IMG/VR virus record: IMGVR_UViG_3300035188_001650
Coordinates: 1-48,978 of that record
DNA from: a virus
DNA length: 48,978 nt
Strand: one strand, 5' to 3'
Position numbers and translations under genes: made by a program. Positions 36,987-44,191 of the stretch are shown here, piece by piece. The notes under the pieces are model-generated. The model saw only the letters and a program-made list of their open reading frames with translations, searched no databases and was not told the origin of the DNA. Each line of letters opens with the position of its first letter. Positions within the stretch are counted from its first letter, which is position 1.

Positions 36987-37730
36987 ATGGACAATACAAA
37001 ATATTCGGAATGGCATGTTGTTGAATTAAAAGGCAAAAAATATATTTTCAACCCGTTTTTTATGGGGGTTGGCGCTTGGGCAGAATTAACATTTACAAAT
37101 TCTCCAGGAAGGTATGCAACAAACCAAGAAGAATTAAATGAAGCGTTCTTTAAACAAAGAAAATTACCTTCTATGTATGAGAGGTTTAAAAACGCTTCTC
37201 CAGCAGAAAGATCTGCTCTAGCGAGTCAATCGATGGGTTGGTTAAATTTAAAAGTAAAGGCTTTAAAATCTAACGCTCCAGAACTGGACAAAATAATAAA
37301 GAAAAAGGTTTTTTATCCGGGAGGAATGTTTTTCTTTTCTTATGACGCAAAATATAAAGATACATTGCCTTATTGGGATAAATTTCCCCTGATAATTTTA
37401 TTAGAAAATAAAGGTTCGCATTTTCTTGGGGTGAATATACACTATTTACCCTATGAAGTTAGATCTTTGATTATAGCAGAAATAGCAAGCAAATCTCAAT
37501 ACATAAAAGAGAACGATATGTTAGTTTCTAATATAAGTTATGAGATCATTAAAAGGTCTAAAAATTATAAAGATTTAAAAGAATATTGTATTAAACTGTA
37601 TCTTAAATCTAATGTTAAAAGTAGGATACTGCCAGTAGAAGCGCACGAATGGTTATTTGCCGCAAACCTACCAGTAGCAGATATGCAAAAACAATCAAAT
37701 TCAAAAGTTTGGAAGAAATATAAAAGATGA
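36987..37730 (+). CDS. Conserved T4-like phage protein of unknown function
   Basis: A 247-aa protein. The core (FYPGGMFFFSYDAKYKDTLP, then YWDKFPLIILLE, FLGVNIHYLPYEVR) and the C-terminal segment (LPVEAHEWLFAANLPVADMQ, NSKVWKKYKR) recall a conserved protein of cyanophage-type T4-like viruses in the tail/head completion region. Its place directly after gp4 is where T4 has neighbouring gene 2 (DNA end protector), but no clear gp2 similarity was seen, so that is only positional. The stop overlaps the next start (ATGA), showing coupling to the tube-fold protein. Confidence 0.7.
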   Translation: MDNTKYSEWHVVELKGKKYIFNPFFMGVGAWAELTFTNSPGRYATNQEELNEAFFKQRKLPSMYERFKNASPAERSALASQSMGWLNLKVKALKSNAPELDKIIKKKVFYPGGMFFFSYDAKYKDTLPYWDKFPLIILLENKGSHFLGVNIHYLPYEVRSLIIAEIASKSQYIKENDMLVSNISYEIIKRSKNYKDLKEYCIKLYLKSNVKSRILPVEAHEWLFAANLPVADMQKQSNSKVWKKYKR

Positions 37731-38404
37731 GCGAAATAAAATATAACTCAGATATAAGAAATTTTCTTGAAACTTTCTCTAAAACGGAAGTAGCAAGACC
37801 CTGTAACTTTGACGTTATGATCACCCCAACAAATCCGGTTTTTGCTTTGGATTTGATGGCGGCTGCAGGTCTTGACGGAGAAGACCCAGCTTCTGCTTGG
37901 AAAAAAATGAAATTTCACTGCGAAGCGGCAGAATTACCATCAAGGACATTTTCTGCGGTTACGCAAAAGTTATACGGTCCAGAAATCCTACACCCAATAC
38001 AAAATTCATATAACAAAATAAACCTAACTTTTATTTGCTCAGACAATATGATTGAACGTTGGATTTTTGAATATTGGATGAATTATATTTCAAACGCGTC
38101 TTTTTTCCCATTCCAAATAGGAATAGAAGACGTTGTTGGTCTATTTACTGACGGTCCAGTAGTAAACTACGATTTTAAATATAAAAATCAATACGAAGCA
38201 TTTATATTAATCACGCAATATAACGTAAAAAACGACCCATCGTATTGGGTTGGTTTGTTTCACGCATTTCCAATATCTTTAAACGAAATGCCCCTTTCTT
38301 GGGAAAATGGTAACGCAATACATAAACTAACAGTAACTTTTGCATACACATACTACAACGCAGCAATTCCTTTAGGTGGATCTATACCATTCCCAGTATT
38401 TTAA
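37727..38404 (+). CDS. gp54: Tail-tube-fold protein (gp54/gp19-like)
   Basis: A 225-aa protein. The order of motifs follows T4 gp54 and gp19: ARPCNFDVMITP, CEAAELPSRTFSAV, NKINLTFICSDNMIERWIFE, YWMNYIS, then FPISLNEMPLSWENGNAIHK and LTVTFAYTYYNAAIP. T4 gp54 has ...WVNSV...PISVSAPELSYDGDN...FDVTFAYRV in the same order. The T4 equivalents are the tube initiator gp54 (320 aa) and the tube protein gp19 (163 aa). It is encoded just upstream of gp26 and the tape-measure-position gene, the place of the tube protein in lambda-like tails. Either identity is possible. Confidence 0.7.
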   Translation: MSEIKYNSDIRNFLETFSKTEVARPCNFDVMITPTNPVFALDLMAAAGLDGEDPASAWKKMKFHCEAAELPSRTFSAVTQKLYGPEILHPIQNSYNKINLTFICSDNMIERWIFEYWMNYISNASFFPFQIGIEDVVGLFTDGPVVNYDFKYKNQYEAFILITQYNVKNDPSYWVGLFHAFPISLNEMPLSWENGNAIHKLTVTFAYTYYNAAIPLGGSIPFPVF

Positions 38405-38418
38405 TCATGGAGTAAATT

Positions 38419-39138
38419 ATGTTACCAAAAATCGAAAGTCCTTTGTATGAAACGACATTACCAATTTCAAATCAAACGGTTATGTTTAGACCTTTCCTAG
38501 TAAAAGAACAAAAAATTCTATTACTAGCAAAACAATCTGAAGACGCAGAATTCGCTTTAAATAATATTAAACAAATAATAAAAAATTGTTGTACCTCAGA
38601 TATTGACGTTAACAAACTCAATCAAATAGACATAGAATACTTTTTCCTACAACTTAGAGCAAGGTCTATTGGAGAAATTGTAGAAACAAAATATAGATGC
38701 AATAATAAAATAGAAGAAAATATTTGCGGGAACTTAATGCCGGTTTCTATAAACCTATTAGAAGTTTCTGTAGACAAAAAAGAAAATAACGACATAATTC
38801 GATTAACGGATAGTGTTGGGTTTAAAATGAAATATCCTGATATTGCAGAATTGTCTAAATTGAATACTGAAATTACTGACGCCGTTACCCTAACATTAGA
38901 GGTAATTTATAACTCATTAGATTACATATTCGACGAACAAAATTTCTATTACAAAAACGAAACGCCAAAATCAGAGGTATTAGAATTTTTAGAATCTATG
39001 TCTATTGATCAATTTAAAAAGGTAGAAGAATTTTTCAGCAATTTACCAGTATTAAAAGAAACCCTAACGGTAAAATGTTCTAAATGTGGGTTTGTACACG
39101 ATATTGATATTGTAGGTCTTGATAATTTTTTAGGGTAA
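38419..39138 (+). CDS. gp26: Baseplate hub assembly protein gp26
   Basis: A 239-aa protein (T4 gp26 is 208 aa), preceded by GGAGTAAATT before the ATG. The N-terminus (MLPKIESPLYETTLPISNQT, then FRPFLVKEQKILLLAKQSED) is the T4 baseplate gp26 family signature. Cys94/Cys103 and Cys220/Cys223 (KCSKCGF) could form a zinc site. The last codons are AAT TTT TTA GGG TAA, containing the slippery heptamer T TTT TTA at 39126-39132. A -1 shift there continues into gp51. gp26 acts in hub assembly and is not a main virion component. Confidence 0.88.
   Translation: MLPKIESPLYETTLPISNQTVMFRPFLVKEQKILLLAKQSEDAEFALNNIKQIIKNCCTSDIDVNKLNQIDIEYFFLQLRARSIGEIVETKYRCNNKIEENICGNLMPVSINLLEVSVDKKENNDIIRLTDSVGFKMKYPDIAELSKLNTEITDAVTLTLEVIYNSLDYIFDEQNFYYKNETPKSEVLEFLESMSIDQFKKVEEFFSNLPVLKETLTVKCSKCGFVHDIDIVGLDNFLG
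39126..39132 (+). promoter_or_regulatory. -1 ribosomal frameshift slippery site joining gp26 to gp51
   Basis: T TTT TTA (X XXY YYZ in the gp26 frame), two codons before the gp26 stop. In the -1 frame a TAA lies at 39123-39125 immediately before it, so that frame opens exactly at the heptamer and stays open to 39317. No obvious stem-loop was found downstream. Confidence 0.65.
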
Positions 39139-39317
39139 CTCTTTCTCATGATAATTTGGAAAACTATTATAAAACAAATTTTGCAATGATGCAACATCAC
39201 AAATATAGTTTATCTGAACTAGAAAATATGATCCCGTGGGAAAGAGAAGTGTTTTTGAATTTATTATTACAACATATTAACGAAGAAAACGAAAAACTAA
39301 GTCAAAATAGGAACTAA
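39126..39317 (+). CDS. gp51: gp51-like baseplate hub assembly factor, probably made as a gp26-gp51 frameshift fusion
   Basis: From the slippery site the -1 frame encodes RVTLSHDNLENYYKTNFAMM then QHHKYSLSELENMIPWEREV and an acidic helix ending in SQNRN (61 codons after the slip; fusion about 299 aa). The block NYYxxxFxMMQHHKYSLxELENMxPWER is the conserved gp51 core of cyanophage-type T4-like phages. It begins before any ATG: the first in-frame ATG (39186) lies inside the conserved block, and upstream only a TTG (39156) without a ribosome site exists. Independent initiation would therefore lose conserved sequence. It ends 1 nt before the next gene. Confidence 0.75.
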   Translation, partial: FFRVTLSHDNLENYYKTNFAMMQHHKYSLSELENMIPWEREVFLNLLLQHINEENEKLSQNRN

Positions 39318-39318
39318 A

Positions 39319-41973
39319 ATGGCGTTACCAGCACTAAACAACAAAAATGCTATTGGGAATTTATCCTTAGACGATAAATCGCAAATATTAACGTCATTGG
39401 TTCAATCGGGAAAACTCCAATTAGTAAATTATGGAGCCATAAACCTCAATCAAAACGTTACTTCCAACGCTACTGCAACAAAAGAGAATTCTTCGAATTA
39501 TTTTGGAGAAGCAATGGTAAGGGCATTGGAAAACATTAAAGGGCTTCTATTCGATTTAAACAATAACATTTTACGTTATATCGAAACGACATCAACGAGT
39601 CAACAAGTAACACAAAACCTTCTAGAATCAAAAGCAAAGGACATTGAAGTTACTAAAACCGCAGGTGGGATTGGGATAGGAAAAGAAAACCTAGAAAAAT
39701 TCTATAAAATTTTTGAGTCCATGAATAATGGAATTCTAAAATTGTCCGAAGGTGTTGGTATAGGAGGAACGTTCGGAACTGGTAAAGGATTTTTGGGAAG
39801 TTTATTAGGGTCATTATTACCAAAACTTCTAAAAGGGTTTTTATTTGGTGCTGCCGGTGCTGGAATCTATAAAGCGATAGATTGGTTGGATGATAGAGAG
39901 ATGAATAACTCTCCTTGGGAAAAGGCGAAGAAATTCGCAAAAGATACATTAGGTTTAGAGTTTGAAGAAGAGGGAGAAAACCAGGAACAAAGAACCGCAG
40001 AACAAACCGGAACAGGTACAACCCCAACAACAGGGACCCAAACAGAAACTCGCTCCCAACAAACTTCTCCAGGAGCAGGAACAACACCTACTGGAAGGTT
40101 AGTACAAGTTGCCGAAAAATTTGAGGGCATGACAGAAAAGGCAAACAAAAAAGAATTAGAAGCATTTTTTAAAACAAATTTGGGTTCTGGTTTTGGGATA
40201 TCAGAAGCTTGGTGCGCAACATTCGTTAATTCTGTCTTATCTGCCAATGGATATAAAAAATCAAAATCAGTAAAAAGTGCAAAAAGTTTCTTAACTTATG
40301 GAGAAGCAGTAAATTTAAATGACGCGAAACCCGGAGACATAGCTGTATTTAATAGAGGTACAGATAAAAATAAGGGGCACGTCGGTTTTGTTGTTTCTTT
40401 AGACGGAAACATGATTACTATAATTGGAGGAAATCAAGGTACAAAAGGTGGCGGCGGAGTAACAAGATCTACAAGAAATACCAAAAAGAAAAATCACGAA
40501 TTGGTCGCTATAAGAAGACCAACAGAAAAAGAAAGTGAGTCTGCATATAAAGAACCTAGTTTACCTCAAACACCCCAAACAACTCCAGTACAGCAAAATG
40601 AAACGCCAAAACTTGCAGATGATATCAAAAAGAAAGGTGTCACAGCACAACAACAAAATGTACCGTCAGAAATAGAAGAGGAAGAAGAACAAGAAGAAAC
40701 TTCAGAAAAGGTCCAAGAAGACCCCTCGCTAAAAAAAGAAACTGCAACAAAAGAAACAGCAACACAATCAAACGAAAAGAAAGTTTTTGACTTTTTCGTT
40801 AGTAAAGGGTTTACAAAAGAACAAGCAGCAGGTATTACTGGAAGTTTAAAAATAGAAAGCCCCACCTTCAATCCCAACCAAAAACAAAAAGGTGGTGGTC
40901 CAGGGAGAGGTATCGCTCAATGGTCTGTTGATGGTCCTAGATTTAAAGAATTGAAAGCTAGAAAAGGTGATAAGTGGAACACCCTTAATGGACAATTAGA
41001 ATATATCTACGAAGAAATAACAGGACAAACAAAACATAAAGAATACGGAAATGTTTATAAAGGCATAAAGTCTGCAAAATCCGCAAAAGAAGCAACTGAA
41101 ATTTGGACGAAAGAATACGAAAAAGCTGGGAAAGAAAATATGACCCAAAGGATTTCCGCTGCAGAAGGAATTCTTAAAAAATATTCAATAGGTTCTACAG
41201 AAACAGAACTAGCTCAAGAAACCCCAAGTACTGGAGATGCAGCAAAGCCAAAAGGACAACAAACAGATACAGAAGAACAACCAAAAGAAAAAACTTTGGT
41301 CGATACTCTAAAAGACGCTTTTGGTTCTACTCTTGAAAATATTACAAAACCCGGAAATATTAAATCAGTGGTTGATGAGGGTTTATATCAAGGATTGTCT
41401 GCTATAGGAGAAGGATTCACTTTTGCTGGAGTTGAAGGTTTTGATAATTCTAGGTTAAGGAAACTCAAGAAACCAGAAGAAACTATTGACGAAAAAATAG
41501 TTAGAAAGGCTACTGATTCCTCCAGACCAGAAGAAACTATTGACGAAAAAATAGTTAGAAAGGCTACGGAGTTCTTCAGACCAGAAGAAACTATTGACGA
41601 AAAAATAGTTAGAAAGGCTACTGATTCCTCCAGACCAGAAGAAACTATTGACGAAAAAATAGTTAGAAAGGCTACGGAGTTCTTCAGACCAGAAGAAACA
41701 GCAAATCTACAACCAAACGTTAAAGAAGAATTATCCGGAAAACGATTAGAAGAAACCACAAAAAATAATGAATCGCTTAAAGAATCGAAAATGGAAGCAA
41801 TAAAAGCCCCACAAGAATCTCAAGCGCCAAATATAAACGTCAATGCTCCTGTGAGCGGTGGAAATGGCGGCGGAGACGATTTTGCAGCTGGTGGTATATC
41901 TAAAATGGACGTTAGAGATTCGGTATTACACCAAATGCAATATAGAAAAGGTTCTTCATCAGCTTTGGTATAA
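39319..41973 (+). CDS. Tape-measure-position tail protein with CHAP-like and tail-lysozyme domains
   Basis: An 884-aa protein with an AGGAACTAAA ribosome site. Residues 155-190 are hydrophobic (FLGSLLGSLLPKLLKGFLFG). Residues 260-400 form a CHAP-like amidase/endopeptidase with Cys299 (AWCATFV), His354 (GHVGFV) and Asn372 (GGNQG). Residues 486-622 form a phage tail lysozyme domain (VFDFFVSKGFTKEQAAGITG, Glu513 in KIES, then GRGIAQW). Low-complexity linkers rich in Gln, Glu and Thr separate them. Residues 719-790 hold four 18-residue repeats (PEETIDEKIVRKA). Its position after tube protein, gp26 and gp51 is that of the tape measure (T4 gp29). Tape-measure function is inferred; the hydrolase domains are recognised by motif and would cut cell wall during DNA entry. 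Confidence 0.75.
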   Translation: MALPALNNKNAIGNLSLDDKSQILTSLVQSGKLQLVNYGAINLNQNVTSNATATKENSSNYFGEAMVRALENIKGLLFDLNNNILRYIETTSTSQQVTQNLLESKAKDIEVTKTAGGIGIGKENLEKFYKIFESMNNGILKLSEGVGIGGTFGTGKGFLGSLLGSLLPKLLKGFLFGAAGAGIYKAIDWLDDREMNNSPWEKAKKFAKDTLGLEFEEEGENQEQRTAEQTGTGTTPTTGTQTETRSQQTSPGAGTTPTGRLVQVAEKFEGMTEKANKKELEAFFKTNLGSGFGISEAWCATFVNSVLSANGYKKSKSVKSAKSFLTYGEAVNLNDAKPGDIAVFNRGTDKNKGHVGFVVSLDGNMITIIGGNQGTKGGGGVTRSTRNTKKKNHELVAIRRPTEKESESAYKEPSLPQTPQTTPVQQNETPKLADDIKKKGVTAQQQNVPSEIEEEEEQEETSEKVQEDPSLKKETATKETATQSNEKKVFDFFVSKGFTKEQAAGITGSLKIESPTFNPNQKQKGGGPGRGIAQWSVDGPRFKELKARKGDKWNTLNGQLEYIYEEITGQTKHKEYGNVYKGIKSAKSAKEATEIWTKEYEKAGKENMTQRISAAEGILKKYSIGSTETELAQETPSTGDAAKPKGQQTDTEEQPKEKTLVDTLKDAFGSTLENITKPGNIKSVVDEGLYQGLSAIGEGFTFAGVEGFDNSRLRKLKKPEETIDEKIVRKATDSSRPEETIDEKIVRKATEFFRPEETIDEKIVRKATDSSRPEETIDEKIVRKATEFFRPEETANLQPNVKEELSGKRLEETTKNNESLKESKMEAIKAPQESQAPNINVNAPVSGGNGGGDDFAAGGISKMDVRDSVLHQMQYRKGSSSALV
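41473..41688. repeat. Four 54-bp coding repeats arranged as a perfect 108-bp tandem duplication
   Basis: Units start at 41473, 41527, 41581 and 41635. Units 1 and 3 are identical (ending in a DSSR codon set), as are 2 and 4 (ending EFFR), so 41473-41580 equals 41581-41688 base for base. An 11-bp remnant of a fifth unit follows to 41699. Confidence 0.95.
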
Positions 41974-43852: not shown

Positions 43853-44191
43853 TTATTTCACCACTTGAAGCGAAACCGGAGCAGTTCCACCCATACCAAT
43901 AGCATTTTTAGCGGCTTGTGATAAATCAATAATACGACCGCGAACAAATGGTCCCCTATCAGTGATTGTCACAAGTACTGACTTTTTATTTTTAAGGTTC
44001 GTAACTTTAACCTTAGACCCAAACGCAATATTTTTATGTGCTGCAGTAAACGCGCGAGAGTTAAAAGGTTTTCCAGAAGCAGTTTTCTTTCCGTGGAACC
44101 CCGGACCATACCAGGAAGCAGTACCAGTTTGAGCTAAAGAAACTTCGGAAGTTATGAACATTAAAAGTACAATTGAAAATAATTTCATCAT
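43853..44191 (-). CDS. Secreted RlpA-like double-psi beta-barrel protein
   Basis: A 112-aa protein with a clear signal peptide (MMKLFSIVLLMFITSEVSLA, probably cut before Gln21) and no lipobox. The mature part is one RlpA/DPBB domain: TASWYGPGFHGKKTASGKPF, then FTAAHKNIAFGSKVKVTNLK and ITDRGPFVRGRIIDLSQAA, with the Asp of TDRGPF and of IDLS conserved. RlpA proteins are lytic transglycosylases acting on denuded peptidoglycan; bacterial ones are larger lipoproteins with a SPOR domain, which this lacks. A GAGGAG ribosome site precedes ATGATG. It has its own upstream late promoter, a ~120-nt leader and a terminator. A wall-remodelling or lysis role is inferred. Confidence 0.85.
   Translation of the reverse strand: MMKLFSIVLLMFITSEVSLAQTGTASWYGPGFHGKKTASGKPFNSRAFTAAHKNIAFGSKVKVTNLKNKKSVLVTITDRGPFVRGRIIDLSQAAKNAIGMGGTAPVSLQVVK

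Follow-up and report, generated by a model that had tools for sequence, protein, structure and literature searches.

A T4-like phage gp26-gp51 junction with a conserved slippery heptamer, very likely joined by -1 frameshifting into short and long tail assembly chaperones

In phage lambda, the genes are ordered tube, G, T and tape measure, and the slippery site is G GGA AAG. For T4-like phages, the tail assembly chaperones (TACs) were reportedly identified by Vladimirov, Gautam & Davidson in 2022 (Virology 566:9-15), and we take these TACs to be gp26 and gp51, consistent with the wording of the texts that cite that study. The short lambda form gpG and the long form gpGT arise by a -1 frameshift and bind the tape measure and the tube protein, and the accessible part of the same 2016 review calls the G-T frameshift conserved in long-tailed phages "except T4" (PMC5009743). 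In the excerpt available of a 2010 review, gp26 and gp51 are hub assembly chaperones with gp51 absent from the particle, and genetic evidence for gp26 in the hub is cited as well (PMC3004832). Two recent papers, each accessible in part, cite Vladimirov et al.: the PRFect paper for the occurrence, in some T4-like phages, of a short gene together with a long fusion gene (PMC10274946), and the Adele paper for poly-T slippery sites in the TAC-N genes of T4-like phages. The latter proposes that TAC-N and TAC-NC of Pakpunavirus Adele and other Vandenendeviridae arise by a -1 frameshift on the poly-T motif GTTTTT (PMC12846349). Among the matches listed in our literature search, no other report had a title or abstract on the gp26-gp51 junction, and the accessible portions of PMC12671138, PMC12859696, PMC11131426 and PMC13222765 held nothing on which T4-like phages frameshift. 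Going by the accessible parts of the citing papers, the link of T4-like gp26/gp51 to tail assembly chaperones was already published in 2022, and the DNA analyzed here adds another member. The first-pass annotation of this DNA, which tied the T4 hub factors to the lambda G/GT system, was right on this point, yet the link was not new; it had missed both the 2022 publication and the relation of T4 gp26 and gp51 as short and long paralogues.

The window, i.e., the whole 48,978-base virus record that was analyzed, contains a T4-like tail cluster in which a short open reading frame (ORF) is overlapped by a -1-frame ORF without a good start of its own. The short ORF is gp26, the putative short tail assembly chaperone (TAC-N or gpG-like; zero frame, 38419-39138, + strand, 239 aa), and its 3' end reads GAT AAT TTT TTA GGG TAA. 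The slippery heptamer T TTT TTA (39126-39132, + strand) lies in the X XXY YYZ phase fit for simultaneous -1 slippage, and the gp26 stop codon (39136-39138) follows one codon (GGG) past it. A TAA stop in the -1 frame (39123-39125, + strand) abuts the heptamer on its 5' side, as read from the sequence, and computation gave the same stop before the heptamer in L038, an IMG/VR contig that carries this region. Past this stop, the -1 frame is open until the stop at 39315-39317, with a translation that includes FFRVTLSHDNLENYYKTNF. This -1-frame extension (gp51 or T domain; 39126-39317, + strand, 63 aa plus stop) encodes the gp51 core, and a TTG at 39156 is the sole ATG, GTG or TTG between the TAA stop and the core. 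All of these features of the gp26 end, the preceding -1 stop and a core that starts upstream of any ATG had been described in the first-pass annotation and were confirmed. The predicted frameshift fusion gp26-gp51 (TAC-NC or gpGT-like) would span 38419-39317 on the + strand, with 299 aa as modelled, and is co-linear with the single-ORF gp51 of T4. Among window ORFs of 100 aa or more, in-phase T TTT TTN occurs seven times (two on the + strand, five on the - strand), and the gp26 heptamer is the only one of these sites at most five codons from a stop.

The gene order of tube-like protein, gp26, -1-frame gp51 and tape-measure-position protein is found in the window and also in relatives, which agrees with the earlier comparison of this locus to lambda V-G-GT-H. 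Upstream lies a tail-tube-like protein in the lambda V position (37727-38404, + strand; phrog_45 tail tube, 1.7e-28). Downstream, the tape-measure-position protein (39319-41973, + strand) matches phrog_9570 tape measure (3e-20, residues 472-657) and phrog_1259 hub/lysozyme (1.8e-24), and it contains CHAP and phage tail lysozyme domains (PF18013, 1.1e-30; PF05257, 2.1e-9). Its translation also displays about four tandem 18-residue repeats (PEETIDEKIVRKAT...) toward the C-terminal part. A tape measure is annotated downstream of gp26-gp51 in RHph_I1_18 and HTVC008M. Further along the window, a small secreted-looking ORF on the - strand (43853-44191) presumably resembles RlpA/double-psi beta-barrel proteins.

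Both parts of the predicted product match the T4 gp26/gp51 family profiles. gp26 matches phrog_150 (5.5e-56) and PF12322 T4_baseplate (4.1e-51), and for the -1 segment the hit is phrog_634 "baseplate hub assembly catalyst" (1.3e-27). The -1 segment also matches positions 231-278 of the 282 in phrog_150 (1.2e-7), in keeping with the inclusion of some long forms, T4 gp51 among them, in phrog_150. The window protein shares at most 39% identity with the other proteins of a 30-protein tree and 54% with its closest IMG/VR relative, near-identical copies aside. The AlphaFold2 model of gp26 has a pLDDT of 93.6, and that of the -1 segment is helical with a pLDDT of 82. When the gp26 model was compared with 642 Foldseek-candidate PDB chains, the top three were 3FGX, 2OB9 and 3KLU (Z of 8.2, 7.2 and 6.7), with these TAC-structure alignments covering 83-85 residues within residues 1-93; the next rows were 5IR0 (Z of 5.5) and then 2.8, and a Z of 7-8 can arise without kinship. 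2OB9 is the HK97 tail assembly chaperone and 3KLU is YqbN, and all three are named phage tail assembly chaperones in the available part of PMC9603447. On its own, Foldseek matched neither the T domain nor gp26 significantly to the PDB (for gp26, 2OB9 ranked 17 and 22, with E of 3.0 and 3.7). Against predicted viral proteins, it gave 52 gp26 matches at E up to 0.001, annotated as baseplate hub proteins, which add family and not function. The gp26 profile found nothing credible among PDB sequences (best E of 0.14), nor did the NCBIfam search. The model comparison is supportive, not absolute, of a TAC fold in the N-terminal domain of gp26, and from homology and fold a chaperone role of the gp26/gp51 products is likely.

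The frame relation and the heptamer are conserved across the sampled relatives. We collected 312 loci and used profiles to locate gp26 and the gp51 core in them; junction residues were kept out of the core profile. These loci were gathered with single gp26 proteins as queries, which biases the sample to frameshift-type genes and makes it no census. Some of the loci duplicate one phage or the window itself, for which reason clustering was done. Of the 312 loci, 294 have the gp51 core in the -1 frame relative to gp26; the remaining 18 comprise 12 contigs that end too early, three duplicated-type phages, two copies of ACP17 and L312. The profile did not find the core in 17 loci, i.e., the 12 early-ending contigs, T4, AS-gz, RB43 and the two ACP17 copies. 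The ACP17 core is too diverged for the profile, and its junction reads GAT TTT TTC GTA TAA, where the -1 frame encodes a core-like segment. In the single locus L312, the core is in the gp26 frame and the gp26 ORF ends early, yet the same kind of junction (AGT TTT TTT TAA) is present. In-phase T TTT TTN inside the overlap was found at 293 of the 294 loci with a -1-frame core, which bears out the conservation that the first-pass annotation had asked to see at relatives' junctions. A first survey (80/80) was biased by a query that included the junction, and the fair count is 293/294; in the subset obtained with gp26-body queries (214 loci, 200 with a -1 core), the site was present in 200/200. Named phages with the site include KVP40, Sinorhizobium phiM7, Rhizobium RHph_I1_18, Aeromonas phiAS5 and AsFcp_4, Cronobacter LPCS28, Acidovorax ACP17, Pelagibacter HTVC008M and Mosig, Methylophilales Melnitz-3, P-HM1, P-SSM2 and S-CAM1. 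A sequencing or assembly error could have split one in-frame gene, as the single T4 gp51 ORF spanning both parts might suggest, but the same split recurs near the same place in 294 loci, finished phage genomes included. This conservation refutes the error, whose probability we regard as vanishingly small.

The heptamer was further evaluated in 72 clusters at 70% protein identity, drawn from 289 of the 294 loci by requiring a gp26 ORF of at least 190 residues and the heptamer; this left out Cygsa01 (L129) as well as L034, L085, L090 and L111, in all four of which gp26 is cut. Its presence in 72/72 clusters is conditional, since the heptamer was an entry requirement. Against each gene's own synonymous codon use, the heptamer in the 72 clusters gives log10 P = -32.9, with relatedness uncorrected. 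All T-runs of at least 6 in the overlap begin at the third codon position, i.e., in slip phase (293/293), compared with only 7/31 such runs elsewhere in gp26 of the clusters. The runs have 6 T in 267/293 loci and 7-8 T in 26/293.

These runs bear on whether RNA polymerase, instead of the ribosome, slips on the T-run and joins the frames. A homopolymer site, with 26 runs reaching 7-8 T, would suit such slippage, but the other 267 runs have only 6 T, and a 6-T run is short for transcriptional slippage. Moreover, the run always lies in the codon phase for tandem tRNA slippage, which a polymerase does not require, and selection for an upstream Shine-Dalgarno (SD)-like element points to ribosomes. 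Polymerase slippage is thus very improbable in our estimation, and ribosomal frameshifting is the reading that we retain.

The upstream element is an SD-like purine run, typically GAGGG or GGAGGG in Glu-Gly codons, that ends 8 nt upstream of the heptamer in 38/72 clusters. Anti-SD pairing upstream is stronger than in synonymous shuffles in 56/72 clusters (p = 3.7e-8, treating the clusters as independent, which they are not). The Glu codon within the run is GAG in 38 cases and GAA in 15, compared with 448 and 1130 elsewhere in gp26. Such an element seems to be selected across the clusters and points to ribosomes. Downstream of the heptamer, the sequence folds more strongly than under the synonymous null in 59/72 clusters (p = 1.1e-9, again treating as independent clusters that are not). 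A common downstream hairpin was sought across the 72 clusters and none was found, the helices being lineage-specific and differing in register. Helices of at least 7 bp occur in 13/72 clusters (6.7 expected) and of at least 6 bp in 21 (17.6 expected), and clean hairpins appear in single lineages, e.g., P-HM1, L041, L073 and L289. Both stimulator elements are weak in the window. Upstream of its heptamer is a weak SD-like GTAGGT (39112-39117, + strand) with an anti-SD duplex of -3.1 kcal/mol, compared with a mean of -6.4 kcal/mol in the 72 clusters, most of which have a stronger element than the window, and the downstream region contains no strong hairpin (5 bp).

The -1 frame ahead of the gp51 core is under purifying selection as protein, even where it has no start codon. 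In the seven codons from the gp26 stop to the core, dN/dS is 0.12 in the -1 frame and 1.13 and 3.0 in the other two phases (97 disjoint pairs, 72-95% identical, from loci with the heptamer 10 bases before the gp26 stop). Among 31 pairs without a start codon in either member, the -1-frame dN/dS before the core is 0.14. Since the stretch is selected as protein and often lacks a start codon, the simplest reading is that ribosomes arrive from gp26. The main rival is that gp51 is a separate short gene whose translation begins at the TTG at 39156, at some non-standard codon or through coupling to the end of gp26 translation, with the T-run incidental. Some relatives, e.g., P-SSM2, have an ATG near the junction, and nine of the 13 frameshift-type records that were fetched by name annotate gp51 as its own CDS. 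However, the annotated starts vary widely, and those of four of the nine (phiAS5, HTVC008M, Mosig and Melnitz-3) lie at least 60 bases past the heptamer, inside the conserved core. No ATG, GTG or TTG precedes the core in the -1 frame of 40/72 clusters, an absence of gp51 starts that the first-pass annotation had proposed to look for, and the purifying selection just described together with the invariant phase of the heptamer also argues against a separate gene. A further point in favor of a separate gene comes from Pseudomonas phage Cygsa01 (L129, 3477-3662), the sole exception among the 294 loci, which lacks the heptamer and reads AGC ATT TTC ACC TAATG, so that the gp26 stop and the gp51 ATG overlap. 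The first-pass annotation had named beforehand, as evidence against frameshifting, a relative that lacks the heptamer and has a good gp51 start; one such relative was found, Cygsa01, and we read it as a lineage-specific exception, the sequence suggesting that coupling replaced frameshifting in its lineage. For the window, a separate gp51 gene has only a slim chance.

Programmed -1 frameshifting between gp26 and gp51, as claimed in the first-pass annotation, is very likely at 39126-39132 because of the conserved slippery site, the frame relation, the selection on the -1 frame, the TAC fold, the gene order and the homology to T4. In the best explanation, which we hold with high confidence on comparative sequence evidence, gp26 would be the short tail assembly chaperone of a T4-like phage, and a share of the ribosomes nearing the end of gp26 would shift back by one base on T TTT TTA, ahead of the stop codon, and carry on translating in the gp51 frame. 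Slippage would yield a long form, presumably less abundant, with a helical C-terminal T domain. The short and long forms, like lambda gpG/gpGT, would most likely coat the tape-measure protein and bring in subunits of the tube, and both would leave before the virion is complete. That ribosomes shift frame here in infected cells, how efficiently they do so, and that the products act as chaperones are all inferred.

T4 encodes homologues of the short and the long product in two genes. The first-pass annotation had described T4 26 and 51 as separate neighboring genes, and they do adjoin, but they are divergently transcribed, and gp51 is more than the core. In T4, gp26 has 208 aa and gp51 has 249 aa, and each of the two matches PF12322 and phrog_150; gp51 includes a full gp26-like domain, and it alone continues into the gp51 core. 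In profile comparisons, the T4 gp51 profile matches window-type gp26 (probability 98.5%, E of 4e-15), the C-terminal end of that gp51 profile is matched by the T segment family (probability 98%, E of 2e-13), and the gp26 family matches the gp51 family (E of 4.5e-22). By these comparisons, T4 gp26 and gp51 are paralogues that match the short product and the whole long product, respectively. Whole-record searches found PF12322 twice in 8/8 T4-type records and once in 16 others, i.e., the window, the 79-kb contig behind L004, 13 frameshift-type phages and Cygsa01; the named records without the T4 arrangement have a single copy in 14/14. The full-length long form was found only in the same eight T4-type records. 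The window has no T4-type separate full-length gp51 gene; in the window and the near-identical 79-kb contig, both of which may be fragments, the hit to the long-form profile is limited to its C-terminal part and falls on the -1 ORF. The long and short genes are divergent in T4, AS-gz, phage 133, JSE, phiP4-3 and phage 31, and they lie long then short in tandem on one strand in RB43 (L130, 3501-4794) and RCIP0002 (L317, 2501-3795). The short genes of these last two phages end with an in-phase T TTA AAG. In-phase T TTT TTN was absent from the whole of gp26 in all eight duplicated-type phages examined (0/8).

The history of the two arrangements was approached with the 30-protein tree, which is unrooted and gives no direction from frameshift to duplication. 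Eight long forms group together (100/99), as do 14 frameshift-type proteins (99/99); the eight short forms as one clade are not rejected (p = 0.43), with a program warning of long branches meeting. The family of T4 gp28 (gene 28, L118, 6849-7382) is weakly matched by T4 gp26 (E of 9e-4; profile probability 60% over about 100 columns), and its profile comparison with window-type gp26 gave no support; by sequence, gp28 may be a distant relative or third paralogue. T4 gene 26 also has an annotated internal in-frame start, 26' (L118, 4303-4590), and given 26', the T4 short chaperone may exist in two lengths. A tentative wider reading, to which we give somewhat less than an even chance, is that the T4 superfamily makes the short/long chaperone pair interchangeably. 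One frameshifted gene would serve in the sampled cyanophage- and pelagiphage-like lineages, KVP40, phiAS5, AsFcp_4, LPCS28, phiM7, RHph_I1_18 and ACP17; a gene duplication, which maybe arose once, would serve in T4, JSE, phage 133, phiP4-3, phage 31, AS-gz, RB43 and RCIP0002; and a rarer stop-start coupling would serve in Cygsa01. In the frameshift lineages, the selected SD-like element, some 8 nt upstream, and downstream hairpins that are specific to each lineage would tune the ratio, and T4 gp28 would maybe be a further distant relative.

Databases misrepresent this gene pair in the sampled records, where the joined product is never annotated (0/13 frameshift-type phage records fetched by name) and gp51 is in some cases absent or begun inside the conserved core. 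gp51 is missing from the annotation in 4/13 (S-CAM1, LPCS28, ACP17 and AsFcp_4). The KVP40 record (L121, 3513-3680) has a note that likens the ORF to a 40-residue stretch at the T4 gp51 C-terminus. The frameshift form is present across a wide range of T4-like lineages, as sampled with frameshift-type queries and not as a census, and the long-obscure T4 "hub assembly catalyst" gp51, together with gp26, is tied to the best-understood tail chaperone system. Beyond the 2022 study, the present analysis contributes a view of how broadly the junction is conserved, a test for selection, the contrast in copy number and evidence that points to an upstream stimulator.

The frameshift appears to be real but not new in kind, being known in lambda and reported for some T4 relatives. 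The window belongs to the same gene family as the T4-like TACs gp26/gp51 of Vladimirov et al., as far as the citing texts describe them, and is a further, divergent member. It resembles lambda gpG/gpGT in gene order and in a short/long pair made by a -1 frameshift, which is predicted in the window; in contrast, it represents another sequence family, with a T TTT TTN site and in T4-like phages, and its type of short form is larger than gpG, with further domains. The Adele and Vandenendeviridae TACs, going by the accessible text, are like the window in a proposed poly-T -1 frameshift and belong to another phage group. T4 gp26 and gp51 are homologous to the short and the whole long product of the window, respectively, whereas T4 uses two separate divergent genes and two PF12322 copies instead of one, and T4-type gp26 is without the in-phase T TTT TTN.
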